Assembly: GCA_950061135.1 (NCBI GenBank)
Contig: CATLVU010000010.1
Coordinates: 1 to 38,894, forward strand
Source of the DNA: an uncultured Oligoflexia bacterium
GTDB lineage: Bacteria > Bdellovibrionota > Bacteriovoracia > Bacteriovoracales > Bacteriovoracaceae
Length of the DNA: 38,894 nt
Reading direction: 5' to 3'
The translations under genes and the position numbers were made by a program. Under the pieces are notes generated by a model that was given only the letters and a program-made list of their open reading frames with translations, was not told the origin of the DNA and searched no databases. Of this stretch, positions 7,261-21,866 are shown piece by piece (the first letter of the stretch is position 1; each line of letters opens with the position of its first letter).

Positions 7261-7782
7261 GTGGGTAATCGTTTATATCAACTAATTGACTCAATTATTT
7301 TAAATCCCATTACACCATTAAAACTTAAACTATTACAGAAATTGTTTAACCGTGGAATTCCATTTAATCTGCCTCATAATTTTAAATTTCTTCTTGTAAC
7401 AAAGTACAAAACAGTTCTAGAGCTTCCGCTCATTTACAAGAACAAAAACCATCTTGGAGGAATCCACGCTTGTGCTATTGCAACTTTGGGTGAATATCCA
7501 GCAGGATTATTAATTATAAAAAATATTGGGGCCACAAAATATAGAATTATCTTAGAGAACCTTAATGTGGATTATAAAAAGCAAGGGCGAGAAGATTTGC
7601 TAGGTATTGTTGAAGTAAATAGAGACGATGTCATTGCATTCAAAGAAAGACTTGAATCAGAAGGAAAAGGTTCAGTGACACTTCAAACTAAGGTTCTATC
7701 TAAATCTGATCGATCTGAAGTTGCCATTGTGACAACTAAGTGGCAATTGAAAGATTGGAAGACAGTAAAGTTTAAGGGGTAA
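7261..7782 (+). CDS. DUF4442 hotdog-fold thioesterase-like protein
   Basis: The 173-residue sequence fits DUF4442, a hotdog-fold family related to acyl-CoA thioesterases such as PaaI. It has the N-terminal RGIPFNLPHNFKF element. The core helix motif NHLGGIHACAIATLGEYPAG packs as the central hotdog helix and carries the residues that normally line the acyl pocket. The C-terminal beta-strands include EVAIVTTKWQLKDW. The GTG start is preceded by AGGAG nine bases upstream and a clear promoter. Hydrolysis of a fatty acyl thioester is the inferred role; the substrate is unknown. The gene is monocistronic and its last 11 bases overlap the end of the convergent lipoprotein gene. Confidence 0.82.
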   Translation: MGNRLYQLIDSIILNPITPLKLKLLQKLFNRGIPFNLPHNFKFLLVTKYKTVLELPLIYKNKNHLGGIHACAIATLGEYPAGLLIIKNIGATKYRIILENLNVDYKKQGREDLLGIVEVNRDDVIAFKERLESEGKGSVTLQTKVLSKSDRSEVAIVTTKWQLKDWKTVKFKG

Positions 7783-10700
7783 TATTATATTGATAGATCA
7801 TCCCTCGAAATGTACTTATCAATAATGTTGAGCTGTCTTTCCAGGTCATTTGATTAGGTCCATTTGAAATAGATAACATTCCAGCCTCAGGCCCTAAACT
7901 CGTATCATCACACCACTCAGCACCACTTGAAATATCATAACAATACAATTCTCCACCAGAAACATAAAAAAGCTGGGTTCCATCTTCAGAAAAAATATAG
8001 TTTTTAATATCTCTATCAGCAGTAAGTAATGTCACGAGTGTACTATTAACAGGGTTTTCAGGTTCTGTTATATAGCGTAATTTATCATGTTCTGAAAAAT
8101 ATAATCTATCTTGTGAATTATTATAATCCATAAAACAATGTGAAACATTTCTACAAATAGAAGAGAAAGTTTTATCTTCTAATAAACCTGCAGTCGCTTG
8201 ATCATTGGTGACATCAGCATCTTCTAAATAGTCTCCCATAATATGGGTCACTTGATTGCTTCCAAAGTCAAATAGCTTCATCTCTGCCCCAAGAACATGA
8301 GAACGGCTTGTACCATTTCTATATGCTCCAAAAACAAAAAGCTTATCACTGCCTTTAAGTGTTAAGTTATTAATTCCCCCATTAACCCATGCACCAAAAA
8401 GCCTTGGGTTATCTCCTGTTTCTGCCTCTTCAAAATAATTAGAGACCCCGCTATCATCAGTGAGATAATCAATTGTTAAGTCTGGCATAACCCTCATATA
8501 AGATTTTGAATTACTACTTGATCTCATCCAAGGCAGACCTTGATCATCAAAATCTAAACTAAAAAAGATCCCCCCTCCATATGGTTGACCTAAGGAAACT
8601 GTTGTATCAAAAGGGTCACCATCACTAGCAATACCACTCTTAGTTTGGTTTCCTGCGATTAAGGTCGTTTGATTTGAATCATCGATATATGCTAACGCCA
8701 TTGCTGATTTATCGATAAAGTAAAGCCCACTTGGAAATGCTGTTTGATTGAGTTCTGTCGCTTTTTTATAATAGATTCCCGATATATCAGATTTAATAAA
8801 TTCTTTAGCAAGCCCGTCTCCGTAAAATGGCCGTGTTCCCATAATTGTTTGAAGTTTGTCATCATCACGAACATAACGAACTGAATACGTTGACGGTGCA
8901 TTTAAATATGCTCCATCTTGAAAAGCAACGGTTCCATCAGGTCCTCTAAAAGGAGGAAAGTAGGAACCTGCACATGTTTGGGCCCTATCAACTCCATCAT
9001 TATAACACTCTCCAGTTCCATCTACTTTCACATAAGTATTTAGAACGTCTGAATCCGAGCTTGAGAAGTCTGCTGTAACAACTTTTATTTCATTACTCTG
9101 TGCTTTATACAAAGTATCATTATCATGATCATAATAAATTCCAGAATTACTCAAATTTGCTCGATACGTAGTTCCATTATTAATTTTAAAACAGCTTGAG
9201 CCATGTAAACAATAAATTATTTTCTCTCCGTTATCCCATATCGCCATACTTGCTAAGTTTGCATAAGCTCCATTTACAACCAAAGGACTAGTCAATGCAT
9301 CTACACCAACTCCTGTTGTTGGATTTCCTCTGGTACAATCTCCTGCAACAACTGAAACTGTTTCTGCTTCTTTTGTTGAAGAGTTCTGTGTAACCTTCAT
9401 TAATCTTAAACCAGGGTCAGCAGCTGCATCTCTGACGTACGACAATGAAGGATCACAACTAGCAAGATAATATAACGAATTACTTTCATCTAAATTGAAC
9501 GCACCATAAAGAACGTGTGCGTTTAAAACCGTTGCTGTGTTGTCAATTTTATCTCCCCCTCCTAGATATTTTTTTATCTCAAGAGTTGATAAATTAATCT
9601 GCCAAATATTAGCTGCAGAATAATTACCTGTTGATTCCATTAAATACATCATTCCATTTTTATCAATATGAAATCCAATAGAATCCGTCGGGACTTGAGA
9701 ATCAGAATTTAAAGTTGATCCATGTACAAAGTTTACTGTCCCACCATGCTTTATAAACATTTCAGTTTTTCCCGTAACAACATTCCCTTTATAAATGCCG
9801 TAACCATAATCGACAGCATAGACGTTGTTAGTCGTTGGATCAACTGCTACCGAAAAGTTTGAAACTGCATTAGATGCATGCCTTAGTCTTGTTGCTAACA
9901 AACTTCCACCTATTCCTCTATCAACAGTACCTGCAAACACAGACCAATTTCCGGTATTAAAAACAACTTCTGCTGACAAGGATGTATTACCAACATTATC
10001 TTTTGCAATAATTTTTAATCTAAAGTATGAACTCGCTGGAGAAGTAAAATCCAAATAATTTCCAGTGTACTCTGTTTGATTTTCACCAATACTTCCATAA
10101 TCTTCTATTATGGTTGTGAACTCTGCATTAGCACTTGAACTTGTAGTGTAATATAAAGAAACAGGTCCCTCTGCCAATTCTTCAGAATCGCTCACAGACC
10201 ATTCAATTCTTAAACTATCCCCTACTGATGCGACTTGAGTTCCAAAATTATCACCAGCCGTGCTATTTGTAACATTAAAGCTCGAGACAACTGGCGCAGA
10301 ACCAACTTGCAACAAGACAGTGTCCATGGTGACACCTTCTTCTCCTTGAGAAGGACTAATCACTGTTACATTTCCTGCATAATCCTTGGCCCAAACACAG
10401 ACTTTCTTTAGGCCATCACCAACAAAGAGTGAATGTGTAAATTGAGTTTGATTTTCGTTATAGTCTTGCCAATTATCATCTGCATATTCTGACTGACAAT
10501 CACCTGTATCAGAATTAGCATTACTTAATCTTATATAAAAATTCTCTGACCAATCATCTACTGCTAAGTCAACAAGTGCATAACTTGAACCAATGAGCTC
10601 CTTTCCTTCTGCCAACACAATACTATTCAATATTGGAGCAACAGTATCTCTGTTCCAAGTCACATAAACAGAAGTTATATTTCCTGCATCATCTGTCTGG

Positions 10701-12133
10701 GAGATTGTATAATTATAATTTCCGTCATTGGTAATTGCAGATGTTGTATAGCTCCAACTATCTGCTGTACAATCAACTTCAGCGCTTTGCTCTCCTGAAA
10801 TGATCACATTTCCATCAGTACTATTACAGCTACCACCAAGTGTTGTTGTATCTTGTGAAGAAAAACTTGGAGATTCAATCATTGTTTGAGTTAAATCAGG
10901 TGCGACAGTATCTTTGTTAAGACTAAAGTTTATTTGTGCTGTATTTGCCTCAGCTCTATCATCCATTTCAATTGTAAAGTTAGCAATTCCCTCAGGAAGA
11001 GAAGATAAATTCAACTCTCCACTAAATTCACTGTTTTCACAATTTAGATCTAGATTAGCATCACCAGAAATAATAACATCTTGTCCTTCTTCATTACATT
11101 CTCCCTGAATTACATAAGAATTCATATTAGACTCAACAATGAAATCACCATCATTTGGAGATAACAAGTTTAAAGCGGCAAGCTCAGTATCCTTTCGAAT
11201 TGAACGAGTAATTGTTTCTGATAAATTTTCCTCTGAGTCTTCTAATTGAAAATTAAACTCAAGTATATCTTCACTTAATGAGCTCATATTATAGTCAACA
11301 TTAAAGACTCCGGAGTTACAACTTATTATGGTATTAACAGCGCCTGAAACCTGAATCTCTCCATCATCGGTACAAGTTCCTGAAAAAGAAAAATTATCGA
11401 CATTAGTATTATTAATTTGAGCATCATGATTTACAGTGAGAGCGGGAATCGTAACATTTTTAGTTACCACCTTAGCAACACTTGTTTTTAAATTACTACT
11501 ATCAGTTGTTTCAACTTTGATACTAACGCTTCCATCTGAAACTTCAGAAAGATCAACAACTTTGATCCACTTATTCGTATCTCTACATTGAGTATTAAAT
11601 TCTAATAAACCTACTTTAATATCAACTCTACCACCTTCATCACAATCTCCCATCAATTCGTACTGATTAACATTTAATTGATTTATACTTGGAAGATCAT
11701 TCAAAGTTAAAACCGGAGGACTTTCATTTAATTCAATCGAATAAATGAAACCACTACTAAAAATTAGATTTTTGTTCTTATCTCTCACCCACAAATAAAT
11801 ATTTTTAACTTCATCACCCTCTGAGAGCTCAAATGAAGCCGGCCTTGAATTATGCCACCCATTCGATTCTCCCTGTCCTCCCTCACAACTATCTTGTGGT
11901 ATTGAAGCTTGAGCTTCACTAACGCACCATTGAGATACATTAGAATCCTTTGATAAAATGATCGTTACTATGCGGGAGAATGTTATATTTTTAGAAAGCG
12001 TTGAACTATCAGCTAAACTAAATAAGATTTGATTTTTTTCGACAACTTGCGATCGCCCAAGCTCTGAGCTTTCCTGATTACAACCAGCTAAAATCAGACA
12101 GATATATAGTATTAAACAAACGTTTATCTTCAT
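7772..12133 (-). CDS. Giant surface lipoprotein: Cys-paired Ig-like repeats plus beta-propeller
   Basis: This 1453-residue lipoprotein has a type II signal peptide with lipobox LAGC (Cys 18). Four tandem Ig-like repeats follow (residues about 140-500), each with two cysteines 18-19 residues apart: 164/183, 254/272, 346/365 and 436/455. Two repeats end in the KDTVAP or RDTVAP linker common in bacterial Ig-like repeats. Another Ig-like or fibronectin-like region covers about 500-745. The C-terminal half, starting with VDPTTNNVYAVDYGYG, has recurrent short beta-hairpins with Asp/Asn-rich turns, which I read as NHL- or YVTN-type propeller blades. Probable role: a long stalk presenting an adhesive or binding propeller on the outer membrane. 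The ATG has a GGAACA ribosome site. No operon partner is evident. Confidence 0.85.
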   Translation of the reverse strand: MKINVCLILYICLILAGCNQESSELGRSQVVEKNQILFSLADSSTLSKNITFSRIVTIILSKDSNVSQWCVSEAQASIPQDSCEGGQGESNGWHNSRPASFELSEGDEVKNIYLWVRDKNKNLIFSSGFIYSIELNESPPVLTLNDLPSINQLNVNQYELMGDCDEGGRVDIKVGLLEFNTQCRDTNKWIKVVDLSEVSDGSVSIKVETTDSSNLKTSVAKVVTKNVTIPALTVNHDAQINNTNVDNFSFSGTCTDDGEIQVSGAVNTIISCNSGVFNVDYNMSSLSEDILEFNFQLEDSEENLSETITRSIRKDTELAALNLLSPNDGDFIVESNMNSYVIQGECNEEGQDVIISGDANLDLNCENSEFSGELNLSSLPEGIANFTIEMDDRAEANTAQINFSLNKDTVAPDLTQTMIESPSFSSQDTTTLGGSCNSTDGNVIISGEQSAEVDCTADSWSYTTSAITNDGNYNYTISQTDDAGNITSVYVTWNRDTVAPILNSIVLAEGKELIGSSYALVDLAVDDWSENFYIRLSNANSDTGDCQSEYADDNWQDYNENQTQFTHSLFVGDGLKKVCVWAKDYAGNVTVISPSQGEEGVTMDTVLLQVGSAPVVSSFNVTNSTAGDNFGTQVASVGDSLRIEWSVSDSEELAEGPVSLYYTTSSSANAEFTTIIEDYGSIGENQTEYTGNYLDFTSPASSYFRLKIIAKDNVGNTSLSAEVVFNTGNWSVFAGTVDRGIGGSLLATRLRHASNAVSNFSVAVDPTTNNVYAVDYGYGIYKGNVVTGKTEMFIKHGGTVNFVHGSTLNSDSQVPTDSIGFHIDKNGMMYLMESTGNYSAANIWQINLSTLEIKKYLGGGDKIDNTATVLNAHVLYGAFNLDESNSLYYLASCDPSLSYVRDAAADPGLRLMKVTQNSSTKEAETVSVVAGDCTRGNPTTGVGVDALTSPLVVNGAYANLASMAIWDNGEKIIYCLHGSSCFKINNGTTYRANLSNSGIYYDHDNDTLYKAQSNEIKVVTADFSSSDSDVLNTYVKVDGTGECYNDGVDRAQTCAGSYFPPFRGPDGTVAFQDGAYLNAPSTYSVRYVRDDDKLQTIMGTRPFYGDGLAKEFIKSDISGIYYKKATELNQTAFPSGLYFIDKSAMALAYIDDSNQTTLIAGNQTKSGIASDGDPFDTTVSLGQPYGGGIFFSLDFDDQGLPWMRSSSNSKSYMRVMPDLTIDYLTDDSGVSNYFEEAETGDNPRLFGAWVNGGINNLTLKGSDKLFVFGAYRNGTSRSHVLGAEMKLFDFGSNQVTHIMGDYLEDADVTNDQATAGLLEDKTFSSICRNVSHCFMDYNNSQDRLYFSEHDKLRYITEPENPVNSTLVTLLTADRDIKNYIFSEDGTQLFYVSGGELYCYDISSGAEWCDDTSLGPEAGMLSISNGPNQMTWKDSSTLLISTFRGMIYQYNITP
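10634..11716 (-). repeat. Four tandem ~90-residue Ig-like repeats within the lipoprotein gene
   Basis: Spacing between the first cysteines of successive repeats is 90, 92 and 90 residues, and the within-repeat Cys-Cys distance is 19, 18, 19 and 19. Each repeat begins with a G-[DTES]-C turn followed by a Gly/Asp-rich loop. The DNA copies have diverged strongly; the repeat is visible only at protein level, indicating an old duplication. Confidence 0.7.
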
Positions 12134-14433: not shown

Positions 14434-16605
14434 CTAGTTAATATAATTTTGATCTTGTCCTTGATCAGACTTTTGCGGTATTAAATTTAAACTTTGCTTG
14501 GCCCGTTTAACATCAAGGAAAACTGAATGTACTCCAGTTATAACTTTTTCCTCGATATCATCGACTTGATATTTATTAATAGAGTCTTGGTAAGATTGGA
14601 TTCCTCTATATCCACTATCAAAATCAATTTTCTTATGAACCATTTTAATCGCGTCCATTTGAGATATTGCACTACTAAATACCAGCTCCAACTTACTCAA
14701 CACGTGATCTACAGTTGCAAGAGACTTTTTTAACTCTGGAGAATATTGACTTGATGCAACCGATTCCAGTTGCTTTCTACCACTTTTAATCGCAGGCTTT
14801 AACTCTGACAATCCTTCAACAATGCATTTTGTCTCTTCCACTATATTTAAAAGGGTTTCGGTATGATTATGTTGAGTCTGAAAGTTAGAATAAAAGTTCG
14901 TCAACTGTTCACACAGGGAATCTAACAAGCTCTTTTGATGATGATTACATGCAACTGATTCAGTAATTACATTCTTAAAATTCTTTAGAGACAGAAGTAG
15001 TTCTTTATTTATCTTGTTAATATCGGCCAGTCTTTCTTCAAGCATTGAGTTCGAACTTGTAAGACTACTTATTTCTCGCTCAATCGTTATTTTTTGCTCT
15101 TTTAAATGAGAAATTGAGTTGTAAATATCCTCGCTTCCATTTAACTCAAACTTAGAATAAGACTCTTCAGAAGGAGTAAAAGTTCCTTCAAATAATTCTT
15201 CTAAAGCACTACTTATAGGGTAAAGAACTTCTGCATTTTGTTCTTTTAACGTCTGATCGATATAATCAAGACTGTTAAGTACTAGGAGCGTTTTCTTTTC
15301 TCCTAAAAGATCCATCGGTGAAACATATAACTGAAAATCAGTGACATTATCTTCTGCTTTGATTTTAATAGGTAAATGCCCACTATTATTTTCTCTTGAA
15401 AGTCTCGCAACAGGGTCTTCACCTGTAATATTAGTCAACTTATTAAAATAGTCCCAAGATAAGCCACTAGCTTCACTTCTTTGAACTTTCCAAATATTTT
15501 TTGCAGACTTATTCATCCATTCAACTTTTAGATTCTCATCAAGCAGCATCATTCCAAATGGCGCACCCAACTCTACGGCTTTTCCAATTTCTGTTTTTTC
15601 TTTAACAAGTAAACTAATTGAATCAATAAACGCGATAAATTCTTCTGAGTATTTATTATCGTTTAAGTCTTGATTCTGAAAAATATGAGTTTTTAAGAGC
15701 GTTTCAAACTCTTTTTCTACTGCAATTTGCTCTTGCTTTAATATTTTTCTATTCAAAGAAAAAGTTGCAATAAAAAAGAGACTAATTATTCCAAGAATAG
15801 AAATTAGGCCAAGAATATAATATTTTCCAACTTGTTCAGCTTGATACCTTTGAAATGTAATCTTAGGAGCAATTTCTTTTAACCAATTATTCAACGCACC
15901 CTTAGACTCTTTAAGCACTCCTAAAAAAGATTGATACTCAACGAAGTATTTATTAAGCATGCCAATTTCAACATTTAGATTTGAAATCCGGCTTAATATT
16001 TCAGATTTCTCCTGTCTAGATAAAACGGAGTTTTCTGTCAGTTTGGTCATCTCTGTAAAGTCTTTTTCAATATATCTTACTAGTTCTTTGATTTTGTCTC
16101 TTTCAATATAGCGATTTGACTTTGATAGTATACGCTCGCTCATGCGAGTTAATGTTCTCCACTCTTTTCTTTCAACATAAAGATTGAACTTTTTTAATTT
16201 TAAGTTAAAAACATTCAGAACTTTCGTGCTATCAGAAAAAGATAGTAAATTGGCGATAGATGTTTTTAAGTTTTGGTTACTTGTCTTTAACTTTTCAAAG
16301 CTTTTAACTGGAATCTGCTCATTAACAACTTCAAGTTCTTTTTCAATTTCTTCAATTTGATCAAGTGCTTTCTTAGATTTTTCTCTTTCAACAAGTTTAG
16401 CAACTTCTACAAAATGGCTTTTTTCACTCAGGCCATTATAAATAAAATTTGCCTTATAAAGAGTCGAGCTACGACTTCCATCAATAAAACCTAATTTCCA
16501 AAAATAAAAAATGGTTCCGAGGGTTAAAATAGCAATAAAACCAATTCCGTATTGGTAATATTTAAGAAATTTTTTAACAGTTGAGTTTGGGCACATTAAA
16601 TTCAC
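14434..16605 (-). CDS. Membrane PAS/coiled-coil sensor-like protein at end of flagellar operon
   Basis: This 723-residue protein has an N-terminal membrane helix (about 18-39), a helical periplasmic region of about 220 residues, and a second membrane helix (about 259-282). A cytoplasmic PAS domain covers about 340-460 (GAPFGMMLLDENLKVEWMN with the following NIW and DYFNKL elements is typical). A long coiled-coil C-terminus follows. The layout is that of a chemoreceptor or sensor kinase, but there is no kinase, GGDEF or HAMP domain, and no chemoreceptor hairpin tip. The start is GTG 16603-16605 or, perhaps better, the ATG at 16594-16596, which has GGAT ten bases upstream. It lies 67 bases downstream of fliA on the same strand, so it probably belongs to the flagellar transcript; a motility-related signalling role is inference. 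Confidence 0.8.
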   Translation of the reverse strand: MNLMCPNSTVKKFLKYYQYGIGFIAILTLGTIFYFWKLGFIDGSRSSTLYKANFIYNGLSEKSHFVEVAKLVEREKSKKALDQIEEIEKELEVVNEQIPVKSFEKLKTSNQNLKTSIANLLSFSDSTKVLNVFNLKLKKFNLYVERKEWRTLTRMSERILSKSNRYIERDKIKELVRYIEKDFTEMTKLTENSVLSRQEKSEILSRISNLNVEIGMLNKYFVEYQSFLGVLKESKGALNNWLKEIAPKITFQRYQAEQVGKYYILGLISILGIISLFFIATFSLNRKILKQEQIAVEKEFETLLKTHIFQNQDLNDNKYSEEFIAFIDSISLLVKEKTEIGKAVELGAPFGMMLLDENLKVEWMNKSAKNIWKVQRSEASGLSWDYFNKLTNITGEDPVARLSRENNSGHLPIKIKAEDNVTDFQLYVSPMDLLGEKKTLLVLNSLDYIDQTLKEQNAEVLYPISSALEELFEGTFTPSEESYSKFELNGSEDIYNSISHLKEQKITIEREISSLTSSNSMLEERLADINKINKELLLSLKNFKNVITESVACNHHQKSLLDSLCEQLTNFYSNFQTQHNHTETLLNIVEETKCIVEGLSELKPAIKSGRKQLESVASSQYSPELKKSLATVDHVLSKLELVFSSAISQMDAIKMVHKKIDFDSGYRGIQSYQDSINKYQVDDIEEKVITGVHSVFLDVKRAKQSLNLIPQKSDQGQDQNYIN

Positions 16606-16672: not shown

Positions 16673-17458
16673 TTAACTTGCTAGATCTTCGTGAGATTCA
16701 AAAGTATTTTTAAGTTTCACTTTAAGCTTAACTATAGCTTGAGTGTGTAACTGTGAAACACGAGATTCTGTAACGTCTAAGACCTGACCTATTTCCTTCA
16801 AGTTTAAATCTTCAAAATAATATAATGAAAGAACAAGTCTTTGCTTCTCTGGTAGCGACTTTATTCCTTCCTTTATAATATCTTGAGAACCTTTGAAATT
16901 CACAGCAGCAAAAGGATTAGAGGATCTTCGATGCTCCAAAAGGCCCATCATCAATCGCTTGTCACCTTTACTGAAAATGGCAGAGTCGTCTATATTTAAA
17001 AGGGATACAGACTTTGAGGCGTTAAGCATTTCATGAAATTCGTCCATAGTACATTCCAGCTCAACACACATTTCTTCATCAGTTGCTGGACGACCAAATT
17101 CTCTTTCTAATTTTGCATAAGCACGCTCTAAAGTCTTAGTTTTTTCTCTAATTGATCGAGGAACCCAGTCTTGAGATCGCAATTCATCTAAAATTGCCCC
17201 TCTGATTCTAAATTCTGCATATGTCTTAAATTTATTGTCTCTTGTAGGATCAAACTTAGAAATTGCGTCCATCAGTCCTATAACACCACATGAAATCAAA
17301 TCATCTAATTCAATATTAGATGGTAACCTTGAAGCGATTTTCTGTGCAATAAACTTAACAAGTGGAGCATATTCAACAACAATCTCATCCTTAACTTTAG
17401 GATCCATTGTACATCTATAATCTTTAAGGTTTTTTAATTTGGTGGTAAGTGATGACAT
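16673..17458 (-). CDS. fliA: Flagellar sigma factor FliA (sigma-28)
   Basis: FliA directs RNA polymerase to late flagellar genes. The 261-residue length is normal for the family. Region 2 covers about residues 25-95 (APLVKFIAQKIA, ELDDLISCGVIGLMDAI, FKTYAEFRIRGAILDELR). The FliA hallmark RSQDWVPRSIREK follows, then region 3 and region 4 with the helix-turn-helix at about 195-250 (LPEKQRLVLSLYYFEDLNLK, then VTESRVSQLHTQAI). The ATG has GGAG seven bases upstream. It lies 26 bases downstream of flhG, the usual flhF-flhG-fliA order. FliA is normally held back by anti-sigma FlgM until the hook is finished; no flgM is in the window. Confidence 0.96.
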   Translation of the reverse strand: MSSLTTKLKNLKDYRCTMDPKVKDEIVVEYAPLVKFIAQKIASRLPSNIELDDLISCGVIGLMDAISKFDPTRDNKFKTYAEFRIRGAILDELRSQDWVPRSIREKTKTLERAYAKLEREFGRPATDEEMCVELECTMDEFHEMLNASKSVSLLNIDDSAIFSKGDKRLMMGLLEHRRSSNPFAAVNFKGSQDIIKEGIKSLPEKQRLVLSLYYFEDLNLKEIGQVLDVTESRVSQLHTQAIVKLKVKLKNTFESHEDLAS

Positions 17459-17484: not shown

Positions 17485-18360
17485 TTAACGAACCTCTTGT
17501 TCCAGAACACGCTTTTGGGAAGCAAAAATAGGATTTGCCGCCTTTTCAGGTGTACTTAATTCATCGGTTAGCTTTTTAACTACTTTAAGAATGTTTTTAT
17601 GCAGGTCATTTTTTCCGCCCTTAGCAAAAAACAAACTATCAAACTTACCTCGTTGTGTATTTAAACGCTCTATTCCCCCTAGTAAAACAGTTCTCCCTCC
17701 AAGGAAGCTTTCAACTGTTTCACTAATAGTGCTTACGACTTTATTAAACTGAGAATATGTCTCGTATTTATTAACAATTAAGTGATTCTCAGTAACTCCA
17801 TACTTATTTCTGAGTATTTTAATCAGGGAGTAAGTGTCTGTGATTGAAGATCTATCAGGATTAACAACCATGATTCTCTTGTCGCAATAAGCATTCAAAA
17901 CCAGACATTCTTTTTGAAGTCCCGCAGGGCAATCTAATAAAACATAATCATATTCATTTTCATGCTCATTCAATATATCAATTATTATTTCTTCAATTTT
18001 TAAACTTGAATCAAAAAGTTCTAAGCAGCCATTACTTGCAGAAAGTAAATGAAACCTTCCATCTTTATATAAACAGTCATCAAATGAACTCTGGGCCGTC
18101 ACCAAAGAGTAAAACTTATTCTCAATCGGTAAACCAAGCTTTATTGCAGTATTCGATAAATTTGTATCACAATCAATTAATAATACCTTGTAACCTTGAT
18201 CTACTAATTCTCGAGATAGCTTTAAAGAGATCGATGTTTTTCCAACACCTCCCTTTCCACCTGTAATCGAAATAGTTTGAGCTTTTGACGATGTTAATTT
18301 TTTATCATCCGGTGCCGCTTCTGAATTGTACGAAAATAACCATTCGCTAGTTTTATGCAT
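17485..18360 (-). CDS. flhG: FlhG/FleN MinD-like ATPase, flagellar number regulator
   Basis: FlhG is a ParA/MinD-type ATPase that limits flagellar number and works with FlhF and C-ring proteins. It has the deviant Walker A KGGVGKT at 36-42, the DCDTNLSNT switch and the Walker B-like YDYVLLDCPAG. A C-terminal amphipathic stretch may bind the membrane. The 291-residue length is typical. The N-terminal 25 residues, however, contain no DQAxxLR motif, the helix that stimulates FlhF GTP hydrolysis in Bacillus/Geobacillus and Vibrio proteins; FleN of Pseudomonas also lacks it. The ATPase motifs look intact, unlike the GTPase motifs of the FlhF encoded 50 bases upstream. Confidence 0.92.
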   Translation of the reverse strand: MHKTSEWLFSYNSEAAPDDKKLTSSKAQTISITGGKGGVGKTSISLKLSRELVDQGYKVLLIDCDTNLSNTAIKLGLPIENKFYSLVTAQSSFDDCLYKDGRFHLLSASNGCLELFDSSLKIEEIIIDILNEHENEYDYVLLDCPAGLQKECLVLNAYCDKRIMVVNPDRSSITDTYSLIKILRNKYGVTENHLIVNKYETYSQFNKVVSTISETVESFLGGRTVLLGGIERLNTQRGKFDSLFFAKGGKNDLHKNILKVVKKLTDELSTPEKAANPIFASQKRVLEQEVR

Positions 18361-18410: not shown

Positions 18411-19796
18411 CTAGAGATCAAACATCTCACATAAAAGTCTTTCTGCAGATGCTCCTTCAATATCATCTGGCGCTGTATAACCTGTTCCAAAGAACTTCAA
18501 AGGCGTATCATTATAATCAAAATGTAAATTAATTATCGATCCGAAACTTACGCATTGGTCGATGTAATTTATAATAACACCATCAACAAAGTTTTTGTAC
18601 TTGGAAAGAATTTTGCGGTTATATTTTTCCTCTTGAATTGCTGATATATTAACCAAAAATTCGATTTCTTCATATGATCTTTTAAGTGTCTCAATGAATT
18701 TTTTTGACTCGTCTGATTCTTTGAAGCGAAGTTTTAAATCAACAACAATTTTTTTACCCGCAGCATACGACTTTCTGATCTGGGCCATTAATTCTGATAA
18801 TGTACTCGTATTAAACACTTCCAAATTATAAAGCTTAGACGCCAAACTTTCATCTTCAAAAAGTTTATCTTCTCTAAAACAGATCACATGCGCATTTTCT
18901 TGCAGTATTGCCATTTTAACCGCCATACTTGATTGCCCAGTAGAACTCTCAGAAAGTAAAACAGTTATGAAGCCATCTTCAACTTCAGAAAATTTAGCTC
19001 TTTCAGTATTAATATGTTCATTTAGCTCTCTTAGGATAAAGTCATTCACTAAATCAGAACTCTCTAGATCATGTTCACTGAGTTCGAACTGCATTTTCTT
19101 CACAATATTACTGATTATTTTTTCTGAAATATCTAATGATCTTAAAGTACTTTTCGCAAAGGCCATTCCTTTAGGCTCTCTTTGTGAAACATTTTCATGT
19201 GTGAGTTTCTCTGTTAGCTCAAAAAGCTTTTTTTCTAAGACATCAATTTGAATACTCTGTTTTTGTACTAAAGATTCTAATTGCTTGTTATTTTGAACCA
19301 AGTTATCCACACGGCCATCAGAGAAATTCTGAGAAGATTCAGGCTCTTGAATATAACTTCTTTCTTGAAAAGTGCTTTTCTCTTCAATTTGCGGCTCTTC
19401 TGCATCATTTAAGAAATCATCTAGAGAACTTTTGATTTTTTCAGAAGTTTTAGAAACAGTATTAACAACCTTATTCAAACCTAAATTACCATAACCTGCA
19501 GCAGGCTTTTTAGACTGAAAATGATCGTACTCATTTATCATATGATTGATACTTGCAGCTGGTGCTTTATAAAAATTTTCTTTTTGGTTATTATCCATAA
19601 CTCTATCCACCTTTGCTTTTTTGATATAATTTTGCTCTGAGATCGCAGCGGTGATTTCAATTTTACTCTTTTTAAAAGCACCTTTAAGACCATTATTAGT
19701 AATCGTCTTAAGTATAATTGCATCAGGGCCCAGCTCTGACTTAACTTTTTTTAATGCCTCATCTAAAGATTCACCTTCAAACTTTCTTACATACAT
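18411..19796 (-). CDS. flhF: FlhF homologue with degenerate SRP-type GTPase domain
   Basis: FlhF is the SRP-family GTPase that places and numbers flagella. This 461-residue protein has the family N-terminus (MYVRKFEGESLDEALKKVK then LGPDAIILKT), a charged linker with a coiled coil near 165-200, an N-domain, and the C-terminal landmark TGYTAPDDIEGASAERL at 438-454. The G motifs are gone. The P-loop expected as GPTGVGKT reads SESSTGQS (282-289), losing the lysine. The usual DTAGR is DLKLR (353-357), the TKLDE guanine-recognition motif is NYIDQ (410-414), and the DTYR switch is absent. The frame is intact throughout and sits between flhA and flhG, so it is a maintained protein, not a pseudogene. 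GTP binding and hydrolysis are unlikely; a scaffold role is inferred. Confidence 0.87.
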   Translation of the reverse strand: MYVRKFEGESLDEALKKVKSELGPDAIILKTITNNGLKGAFKKSKIEITAAISEQNYIKKAKVDRVMDNNQKENFYKAPAASINHMINEYDHFQSKKPAAGYGNLGLNKVVNTVSKTSEKIKSSLDDFLNDAEEPQIEEKSTFQERSYIQEPESSQNFSDGRVDNLVQNNKQLESLVQKQSIQIDVLEKKLFELTEKLTHENVSQREPKGMAFAKSTLRSLDISEKIISNIVKKMQFELSEHDLESSDLVNDFILRELNEHINTERAKFSEVEDGFITVLLSESSTGQSSMAVKMAILQENAHVICFREDKLFEDESLASKLYNLEVFNTSTLSELMAQIRKSYAAGKKIVVDLKLRFKESDESKKFIETLKRSYEEIEFLVNISAIQEEKYNRKILSKYKNFVDGVIINYIDQCVSFGSIINLHFDYNDTPLKFFGTGYTAPDDIEGASAERLLCEMFDL

Positions 19797-19799
19797 GGT

Positions 19800-21866
19800 C
19801 TACACCCTAACCGTTCCTAACGATCTAATATTAACCTCGGGACTAAGTTCATTGTGACTTATTACCACGAGGTTCGGAATAAATTTTTCTGTTAACTTTT
19901 TAAAATGACGACGAATAACTGGTGAGCACAGAACAACCATTTTTTCTCCCATATTCGTTGCCTCTTCAATTCTCTCATTTAAACTCGCCAAAATTGTTTG
20001 TGTAATTTTTGGATCAAGAGATAATTCTTGTCCCTTTTCTGTTTGAATAAGATTTTGGGCCAAGGATTCTTCTATAGCGCGATCAAGTGTAAATAAAGGA
20101 ACATCTCCTTCTTCACTTTTAACTTTTTCAGTAATTGTTCTATATAAAGATTCTCTAGCCATTTCTGTTAAACTATCCGGGTCCTTTATTATTGTACCAT
20201 TGTCAGCAAGTGTTTCAAGGATCGTGCGCATATCTCTAATAGAAACTGACTCTCTGAGTAGGTTTTGTAGTACTCTTAAAACCGAGCCTAGAGGTAGGAT
20301 GTCAGGAATAAGGTCATCTACGACTTTTGGATATTCTTGTTTTATATTATCAAGTACACCAACAAGTTCTTGTCTCCCAAATAAACTATGAATATTAGTT
20401 TTAAGAACTTCAGTTAAATGAGTTGCAATAATAGTTGATAGGTCCACTACTGTATAACCGTTATATTGAGCGTCCTCTTTAGAGTCTTCATTTATCCAAA
20501 CTGCATCAAGTCCAAATACAGGCTCTTTACCAGGGATTCCTTCAATCTCTTCAATAACTGTTCCTGGGTCCATAGCTAAAAAGTGATCTGGCATTAATTC
20601 TGATCTTGCAACATCAATACCTTTAATTTTAATTGCATACTCACCAGGCTTTAATTCAAGATTATCTCTAATTCTTACTGAAGGAATAATTACTCCCCAG
20701 TCTGTCACAAATTGCTTTCTTATATGACTAATTCTTTCTAATAAGTCTCCACTTTGATCGCTATCAACAATATTAACTAGTCCATAGCCTACTTCGAGCT
20801 CTACTAGTTCTAAATTTAAAAGCTCTTCTAAGTTTTCGCCTTTTTCCTTTTTTTCTTCAATTGCTTCAATACTTTCTGCTCGTTTATCTTCTTCAGTTTT
20901 TCTCTCAATTCTAAAAGCTATAAAAGCGAGCGAGGATGCAATAATTACAAATGGAAGAACAGGAAATCCCGGAATCAGAGCAAATAAAAACAATACTGAT
21001 GCTGCAATATAAAGGGCTTTTGGATTAACTGAAAACTGCTGTCCTAATTGCTGGCTTAGTCCTTTTTCATTAGTGTTTCTAGTCGCGATAATACCTGCAG
21101 CTGTAGAAATAATTAGTGCCGGTATCTGAGCAATTAATCCATCACCAACTGTTAATAATGTGAAAACTTCAGTCGCCTGAGCAAAAGAGAGATCGTTTTG
21201 GGCCATACCGATAATAATCCCTGCAATAATATTAACTACAGTAATTAAGATACCAGCTATAGCATCCCCTCTAACGAATTTACTCGCACCATCCATCGAC
21301 CCGTAAAAATCAGCTTCTTGAGCAACTTCCTCTCGCCTTGTTTTCGCCTGAGATTCATTTATAAGTCCAGCATTCAAATCAGCATCGATTGCCATTTGTT
21401 TTCCGGGCATTGCATCTAATGTAAATCTAGCTGCAACCTCAGCTACTCGTCCAGCACCCTTGGTAATAACAATAAAGTTTATGATGACAAAAATAATGAA
21501 GATGATAATACCTACCGCAAAGTTTCCACCAACAACATATTGCCCAAAGGCTTGAATAATATCACCCGCAGCGCTTGAACCTTCAGTCCCTCCTCGAATT
21601 AAAATATTTCTAGTAGAAGCAACGTTTAGTGAAAGTCTAAATAATGTGGCAACTAATAAAACAGAAGGAAAGGTACTAAAGTCGAGAGGTTTTTTTATGT
21701 AAACACTAATTAGTAATATTGTGATAGAACCAGCAAGAGTAAGCGCAATAAATAAATCCATCATAAATGGACTTATTGGAACAATCATTACTCCAAGAGT
21801 AAGTATTAACCCAAAAGCTACTGCGAGGTCTGCGTTCTTTGAAAAATCTTTAAGCCGGTCTAGCAT
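19800..21866 (-). CDS. flhA: Flagellar export gate protein FlhA
   Basis: FlhA is the main membrane component of the flagellar type III export gate; its ring of cytosolic domains binds substrate-chaperone complexes. The 688-residue length matches E. coli (692). The first half has about eight membrane helices with the conserved FHIPEP-family stretches SVLLVATLFRLSLNVASTRN and GAGRVAEVAARFTLDAMPGK. The second half is the cytosolic domain, with the typical GEYAIKIKG near 410 and the closing RRHFKKLTEKFIPNLVVISH followed by PEVNIRSLG. The ATG has AGGA six bases upstream. It follows flhB by nine bases and its stop lies three bases before the flhF ATG. Confidence 0.98.
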   Translation of the reverse strand: MLDRLKDFSKNADLAVAFGLILTLGVMIVPISPFMMDLFIALTLAGSITILLISVYIKKPLDFSTFPSVLLVATLFRLSLNVASTRNILIRGGTEGSSAAGDIIQAFGQYVVGGNFAVGIIIFIIFVIINFIVITKGAGRVAEVAARFTLDAMPGKQMAIDADLNAGLINESQAKTRREEVAQEADFYGSMDGASKFVRGDAIAGILITVVNIIAGIIIGMAQNDLSFAQATEVFTLLTVGDGLIAQIPALIISTAAGIIATRNTNEKGLSQQLGQQFSVNPKALYIAASVLFLFALIPGFPVLPFVIIASSLAFIAFRIERKTEEDKRAESIEAIEEKKEKGENLEELLNLELVELEVGYGLVNIVDSDQSGDLLERISHIRKQFVTDWGVIIPSVRIRDNLELKPGEYAIKIKGIDVARSELMPDHFLAMDPGTVIEEIEGIPGKEPVFGLDAVWINEDSKEDAQYNGYTVVDLSTIIATHLTEVLKTNIHSLFGRQELVGVLDNIKQEYPKVVDDLIPDILPLGSVLRVLQNLLRESVSIRDMRTILETLADNGTIIKDPDSLTEMARESLYRTITEKVKSEEGDVPLFTLDRAIEESLAQNLIQTEKGQELSLDPKITQTILASLNERIEEATNMGEKMVVLCSPVIRRHFKKLTEKFIPNLVVISHNELSPEVNIRSLGTVRV

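Follow-up and report, generated by a model that had tools for sequence, protein, structure and literature searches.

The window analysed here is a stretch of 38,894 nucleotides from an uncultured member of the Bacteriovoracaceae, and its open reading frames include a flagellar cluster in the order flhA, flhF, flhG and a FliA/WhiG-type sigma factor gene. The flhF frame is intact between flhA and flhG, as the preliminary description had stated; it encodes 461 amino acids from an ATG start, its neighbours can be located on both sides, and the domains of its product are ordered as B domain, linker, N domain and pseudo-G domain. The genes and features of the cluster are as follows.

19800-21866: flhA, adjoining flhF; match to PF00771
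18411..19796, minus strand: flhF, a pseudo-GTPase gene of 461 aa (ATG start), identified by TIGR03499, an AlphaFold2 model and Foldseek matches to FlhF
19599..19796, minus strand: N-terminal B domain (residues 1-66) with LGPDAIILKT, conserved with canonical FlhF
19464..19496, minus strand: linker motif GYGNLGLNKVV (residues 101-111), whose residues hardly vary across the alignment of 31 clade sequences
19410..19424, minus strand: linker motif LDDFL (residues 125-129)
18930..18953, minus strand: pseudo P-loop SESSTGQS (residues 282-289), Gln288 replacing Lys
18726..18740, minus strand: G3 position DLKLR (residues 353-357), Asp retained and TAGR lost
18555..18569, minus strand: G4 position NYIDQ (residues 410-414), Asp413 retained and Lys lost, followed by Cys415
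18435..18485, minus strand: retained closing loop TGYTAPDDIEGASAERL (residues 438-454; TGxxxPDDxE)
17485..18360, minus strand: flhG, MinD-type ATPase partner; Walker A motif KGGVGKT intact, best PDB matches FleN/FlhG, AlphaFold2 model
18325..18357, minus strand: N-terminal helix of FlhG, HKTSEWLFSYN (residues 2-12), replacing the enhancer helix with DQAxxLR
16673..17458, minus strand: gene for a FliA/WhiG-type sigma factor, following flhG in the cluster; Sigma70 r2, r3 and r4

Its position, its B domain and its predicted fold identify the frame at 18411-19796 as the Bacteriovoracia orthologue of FlhF. The NCBIfam FlhF profile TIGR03499 matches it from residue 1 with 59 bits, against an equivalog cut-off of 174 bits, so the homology is real but divergent. 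The Pfam SRP54 profile gave no match to the protein at E ≤ 10, a contig search with a single FlhF protein as query returned no relatives, and phmmer found no match in the PDB, where FlhF structures were recovered only by fold comparison. For that comparison, an AlphaFold2 model was built from a 31-row alignment (mean pLDDT 77.8, with the NG core mostly at 85-93). The best Foldseek match in the PDB was Shewanella putrefaciens FlhF (8r9r; E 4e-13, TMt 0.78), followed by Bacillus subtilis FlhF (2px3; TMt 0.79), and the model thus retains the NG-domain fold of SRP GTPases. With the FlhF proteins of B. subtilis (2px0, 2px3, 3syn) and S. putrefaciens (8r9r), the window protein shares the flhA-flhF-flhG-fliA gene order, the LGPDAIILKT B domain and the NG fold. 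GPDAIILK and its flanking residues are common to the window protein and to FlhFs from other families of Bdellovibrionota, which served as outgroup; the N-terminus and the C-terminal TGYTAPDDIEGASAERL at residues 438-454 are indeed both retained, as had been claimed.

Unlike canonical FlhF, the proteins of this clade have Gln for the P-loop Lys and Ser for its first Gly, and the DTYR and DTAGR signatures and the Lys of TKxD are gone. In the window the canonical GxxGxGK[ST] reads SESSTGQS, and DTYR, DTAGR and TKxD are absent, so that of G3 and G4 only the Asp persists; SESSTGQS, DLKLR and NYIDQ all stand where they had been reported. The distribution of these changes was followed in stages, beginning with an alignment of 31 homologues from the same family as the window, to which 80 loci from records named Bacteriovoracaceae, Halobacteriovoraceae, Bacteriovorax or Halobacteriovorax marinus were added. 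In these first 111 clade sequences, Gln replaced the P-loop Lys and Ser the first Gly without exception (111/111 each). Further genomes were then added and duplicates removed, giving 101 non-redundant clade FlhFs and 59 outgroup FlhFs. In this final set, Gln occupies the Lys position in 101/101 clade proteins where it was read, and Ser (Ser282) the first Gly position in 100/101; all 59 outgroup proteins keep GxxxxGK[ST] (Gly 59/59, Lys 59/59). This contrast between Gln and Lys lies well outside what chance would produce. In a tree, the clade forms a single branch with 100/100 support and a stem of 2.34 changes per site, which is most simply read as one origin before the clade radiated.

It is extremely improbable that the gene is decaying, or that errors in sequencing or assembly produced its altered motifs and a canonical FlhF is encoded elsewhere. 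The window's genome is only a draft (2.75 Mb, 178 contigs, 88.6% complete), which leaves some room for such a reading; yet the identical changes recur in 101 non-redundant sequences, which excludes an assembly error at the P-loop, and FlhF is under strong purifying selection. That genome holds just two full SRP54 GTPases, whose frame lengths fit FtsY (365 aa) and Ffh (477 aa). In 14 other genomes of the class, several of them in 1-10 contigs, no second FlhF was found: the full-length SRP54 matches were Ffh and FtsY only, and the remaining ones were weak and partial, some falling on the C-terminal half of FlhF itself. A second canonical FlhF, found neither in the window's genome nor in nearly complete genomes of the class, was rejected as far as the genomes allow.

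The pocket has nonetheless not been stripped of all its GTPase features, and the earlier claim that every GTPase motif was lost is overstated. It holds for the P-loop Lys, the first Gly, DTYR, TAGR and the Lys of TKxD; the G3 Asp, the G4 Asp, the P-loop Gly, the Ser/Thr that follows and the TG...P.D.E loop are retained. Across the clade, the P-loop Gly is kept in 100/101 proteins, S or T follows the Gln in 98, the G3 Asp is present in 100 (with K or R at +2 in 95), Cys415 occurs in 97, and the G4 Asp is found in all 100 proteins with a residue at that position. Ranked by conservation over 257 NG-domain sites, Gln288 comes first jointly with Lys294, Asp413, Pro432, Gly439, Asp445 and Ala449, with Ser282, Gly287 and Asp353 just below; Gln288, Asp413, Gly439 and Asp445 are invariant in the clade wherever the residue is present. 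Gln288 is encoded by both CAA (66) and CAG (35) and Ser282 by all six Ser codons, so the conservation acts at the protein level, and dN/dS of the NG domain is 0.01-0.08 among the 40 closest clade pairs. These near-invariant Asp, Gly and loop residues and the low dN/dS argue that the pocket is not drifting, having been re-made and then frozen. At the position of the first Gly the clade reads Ser-Glu/Asp; Glu283 and Lys355 form a candidate salt bridge that would close the pocket, with neither position invariant in the clade.

Conserved motifs are also found in the linker. A loose pattern for GYGNLGLNKVV occurs in 68/101 clade members and 2/59 outgroup proteins, and LDxFL in 93/101 and 0/59, respectively; the latter is, from its sequence distribution, a possible new contact.

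The FlhF/FlhG pair is the textbook example of a GTPase/ATPase switch that sets where flagella are placed and how many are built, and mutational studies disagree as to whether GTP hydrolysis, or binding alone, matters for FlhF. A flagellated, mostly predatory clade in which no member read has the P-loop Lys is a direct natural test of what the nucleotide is for. Judged from sequence, the FlhF of this class is probably a conserved pseudo-GTPase that works as a constitutive scaffold. The P-loop Lys and first Gly, the DTYR region including the catalytic Arg, and TAGR are missing from the whole clade, which has new invariant residues instead; the fold and the B domain are retained, as is the opposite side of the pocket. 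Such a FlhF would no longer cycle between a GTP-bound dimer and a GDP-bound monomer and would be held in one state; its B domain would recruit FliG/FliF, its NG-like domain would dock at the pole, and FlhG, as an intact ATPase, would be left with the control of flagellar number. Two sets of published data favour a constitutive scaffold. Polar docking of the S. putrefaciens FlhF NG domain to HubP is nucleotide-independent (PMC11236974). Vibrio FlhF tolerates mutation of its catalytic Arg; some flagella are still made with K305A or G299A, and none with T306A or D439A (PMC6092412, PMC7226244). In the clade, the K and the first G, where change is tolerated, are replaced, and Ser/Thr is kept at the T306 position and Asp at that of D439. 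Against this, GTP binding by FlhF appears essential in V. cholerae (PMC6092412), so that the step to a nucleotide-free form was not a small one, and a purely structural scaffold has no obvious need of the Asp at G3 and at G4, of a Ser/Thr following the Gln or of the TG...PDD loop.

These retained residues bear on the main rival to the scaffold, in which the pocket still holds a ligand without hydrolysing it, either a guanine nucleotide bound from its base side with Gln288 standing in for Lys or another small molecule, and FlhF is a ligand-bound, non-switching or sensor-like dimer. Such a ligand is conceivable, since invariance extends to the residues on the guanine side (G4 Asp, TG...PDD loop). 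The pocket is moreover the best-conserved part of the NG domain, and the positions kept include those of T306 and D439, whose mutation abolished function in Vibrio (PMC6092412). We nevertheless regard this reading as rather doubtful, given that the P-loop Lys, the first Gly, the DTYR region and the Lys of TKxD are all gone and that Ser-Glu/Asp at the first Gly brings negative charge near the phosphate site. In GTPases, loss of such motifs normally abolishes nucleotide binding.

The partner protein FlhG has changed as well. The DQAxxLR motif marks the enhancer helix of FlhG, and its Gln is co-catalytic for FlhF (PMC12826062). With the FlhG/FleN described there, clade FlhG shares KGGVGKT and an N-terminal helix followed by a linker; unlike that enhancer, it has a Trp-Leu motif in the place of DQAxxLR. 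Among 94 non-redundant clade FlhGs, DQAxxLR was found in none and the Trp-Leu segment in 92 (90 by pattern, together with L094 and L098, which read HWL). In the AlphaFold2 model of the window FlhG, residues 2-12 form a helix joined to the core by a disordered linker, both at low confidence, and the Trp-Leu helix may, with the same low model confidence, still touch FlhF, no longer as a GTPase activator.

The outgroups, whose FlhF P-loops are canonical, are informative about the order in which this machinery was lost. DQAxxLR is present in just 8 of 40 readable outgroup FlhGs, and the position of the catalytic Arg of DTYR holds Arg in only 7/59 outgroup FlhFs and Lys in 41/59. Because outgroups are often without DQAxxLR or the catalytic Arg and yet have an intact P-loop, sequence comparison suggests that the hydrolysis machinery was lost first and the P-loop last, in the stem of Bacteriovoracia. 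These relatives thus put the loss of catalytic Arg and activator helix commonly first. A tight co-loss of the FlhF P-loop and the FlhG DQAxxLR motif as a single event is not supported, since DQAxxLR is already absent from many outgroups whose P-loop is intact. At the loci L042, L047-L050, L181-L186 and L197-L232 of other Bdellovibrionota, DQAxxLR is absent from many FlhGs and Lys stands for the catalytic Arg in most FlhFs, with the P-loop intact. In one flagellated genome (G001, locus L040) the order is flhA-flhF-sigma and FlhF is very divergent; no flhG was found between flhF and the sigma gene or elsewhere in this genome, which is 75% complete.

Across 123 genomes of the class, flhA was found in 115, and the pseudo-FlhF accompanies it in 114; the only exception is G064, where flhA rests on a partial match. 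One genome listed as 99% complete (G025) has fliG and five flagellin matches and neither flhA nor flhF, probably owing to an assembly gap. A single polar flagellum is described for H. marinus BE01 (PMC5760749), and the pseudo form was read from an H. marinus genome (L092). The preliminary description is partly borne out: in its sequence, FlhF appears as a conserved pseudo-GTPase, clade-wide, single-copy and under purifying selection in flagellum-building bacteria. The suggestion that this form suits a permanently single polar flagellum carries little weight as a cause, given that canonical FlhF is retained in other bacteria with one flagellum, such as Vibrio (PMC7226244).

The clade proteins combine a GTPase fold, the loss of signature motifs and conservation under selection, and can on these grounds be counted as pseudoGTPases. 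To our knowledge the SRP GTPases (Ffh, FtsY, FlhF) include no other pseudo-enzyme, nor is one described in the papers searched. A literature search on FlhF with Bdellovibrio, Bacteriovorax/Halobacteriovorax or pseudo-GTPase found no earlier description, with subscription papers mostly outside its scope. They resemble eukaryotic pseudoGTPases such as the pseudoGTPase domains of p190RhoGAP (PMC5593906), with which the clade proteins share a GTPase-like fold, lost signature motifs and, probably, a structural or protein-binding role; unlike these, FlhF is bacterial and belongs to the SIMIBI/SRP rather than the Ras/Rho-like GTPases. The exchange of the GTP-binding Lys for an invariant Gln suggests that FlhF, a GTP-driven switch in other bacteria, has turned into a fixed scaffold in Bacteriovorax and its relatives.

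One genus, g32 (G031, G104, G105 and G106), stands apart, as flhA, fliG and flagellin were not found in any of its four genomes. Three of them (G031, G104, G106) keep a pseudo-FlhF of 346-384 aa (L233:9044-10171 in G031, L235:9441-10481 in G104 and L234 in G106), and flhG was not found in these three. In the g32 cluster, the pseudo-FlhF gene stands with genes for a FliA/WhiG-type sigma factor and for a membrane coiled-coil protein of 640 aa. Upstream of the cluster lie SpoIID, amidase and DsbA-like genes, and the same kinds of gene stand just beyond the flagellar block in the window; this shared flank suggests that the flagellar block was excised while flhF stayed. FlhF might accordingly have been re-purposed beyond the flagellum, for pole marking or together with the neighbouring sigma factor, flagellar placement being only one of its outputs. 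This would be compatible with a scaffold, and its persistence in g32 without flhA, fliG, flagellin and flhG, with an NG dN/dS of 0.028 between G031 and G106, speaks for it. It is unlikely as a general account, however, in that it is seen in one genus, FlhF elsewhere always following flhA, and that the g32 proteins are shorter, so that their role may be derived. Bringing these strands together, we tentatively envisage a single conversion of an SRP-family GTPase switch, early in the history of the class, into a polarity scaffold that needs no nucleotide and whose contact with FlhG was remodelled as well; a role outside the flagellum would then have preserved this scaffold when g32 lost the flagellum.

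Several neighbouring genes may also be recorded. In g32, a small gene of 169-173 aa overlaps the start of flhF (L233:8526-9047; L235:8935-9444); it matches no Pfam family and resembles none of the window's FliL, FliM, FliN and FliO, and a FliM/FliN remnant was rejected for the 173-aa gene on this ground. In the window, the sigma factor gene is followed by a 723-aa membrane/coiled-coil gene (14434-16605) with only a weak hint of a PAS domain; in g32, too, the sigma factor gene is followed by a gene of similar kind. Further along, at 7772-12133 on the minus strand, a 1453-aa lipoprotein-like gene with repeated domains lies beside feoB.
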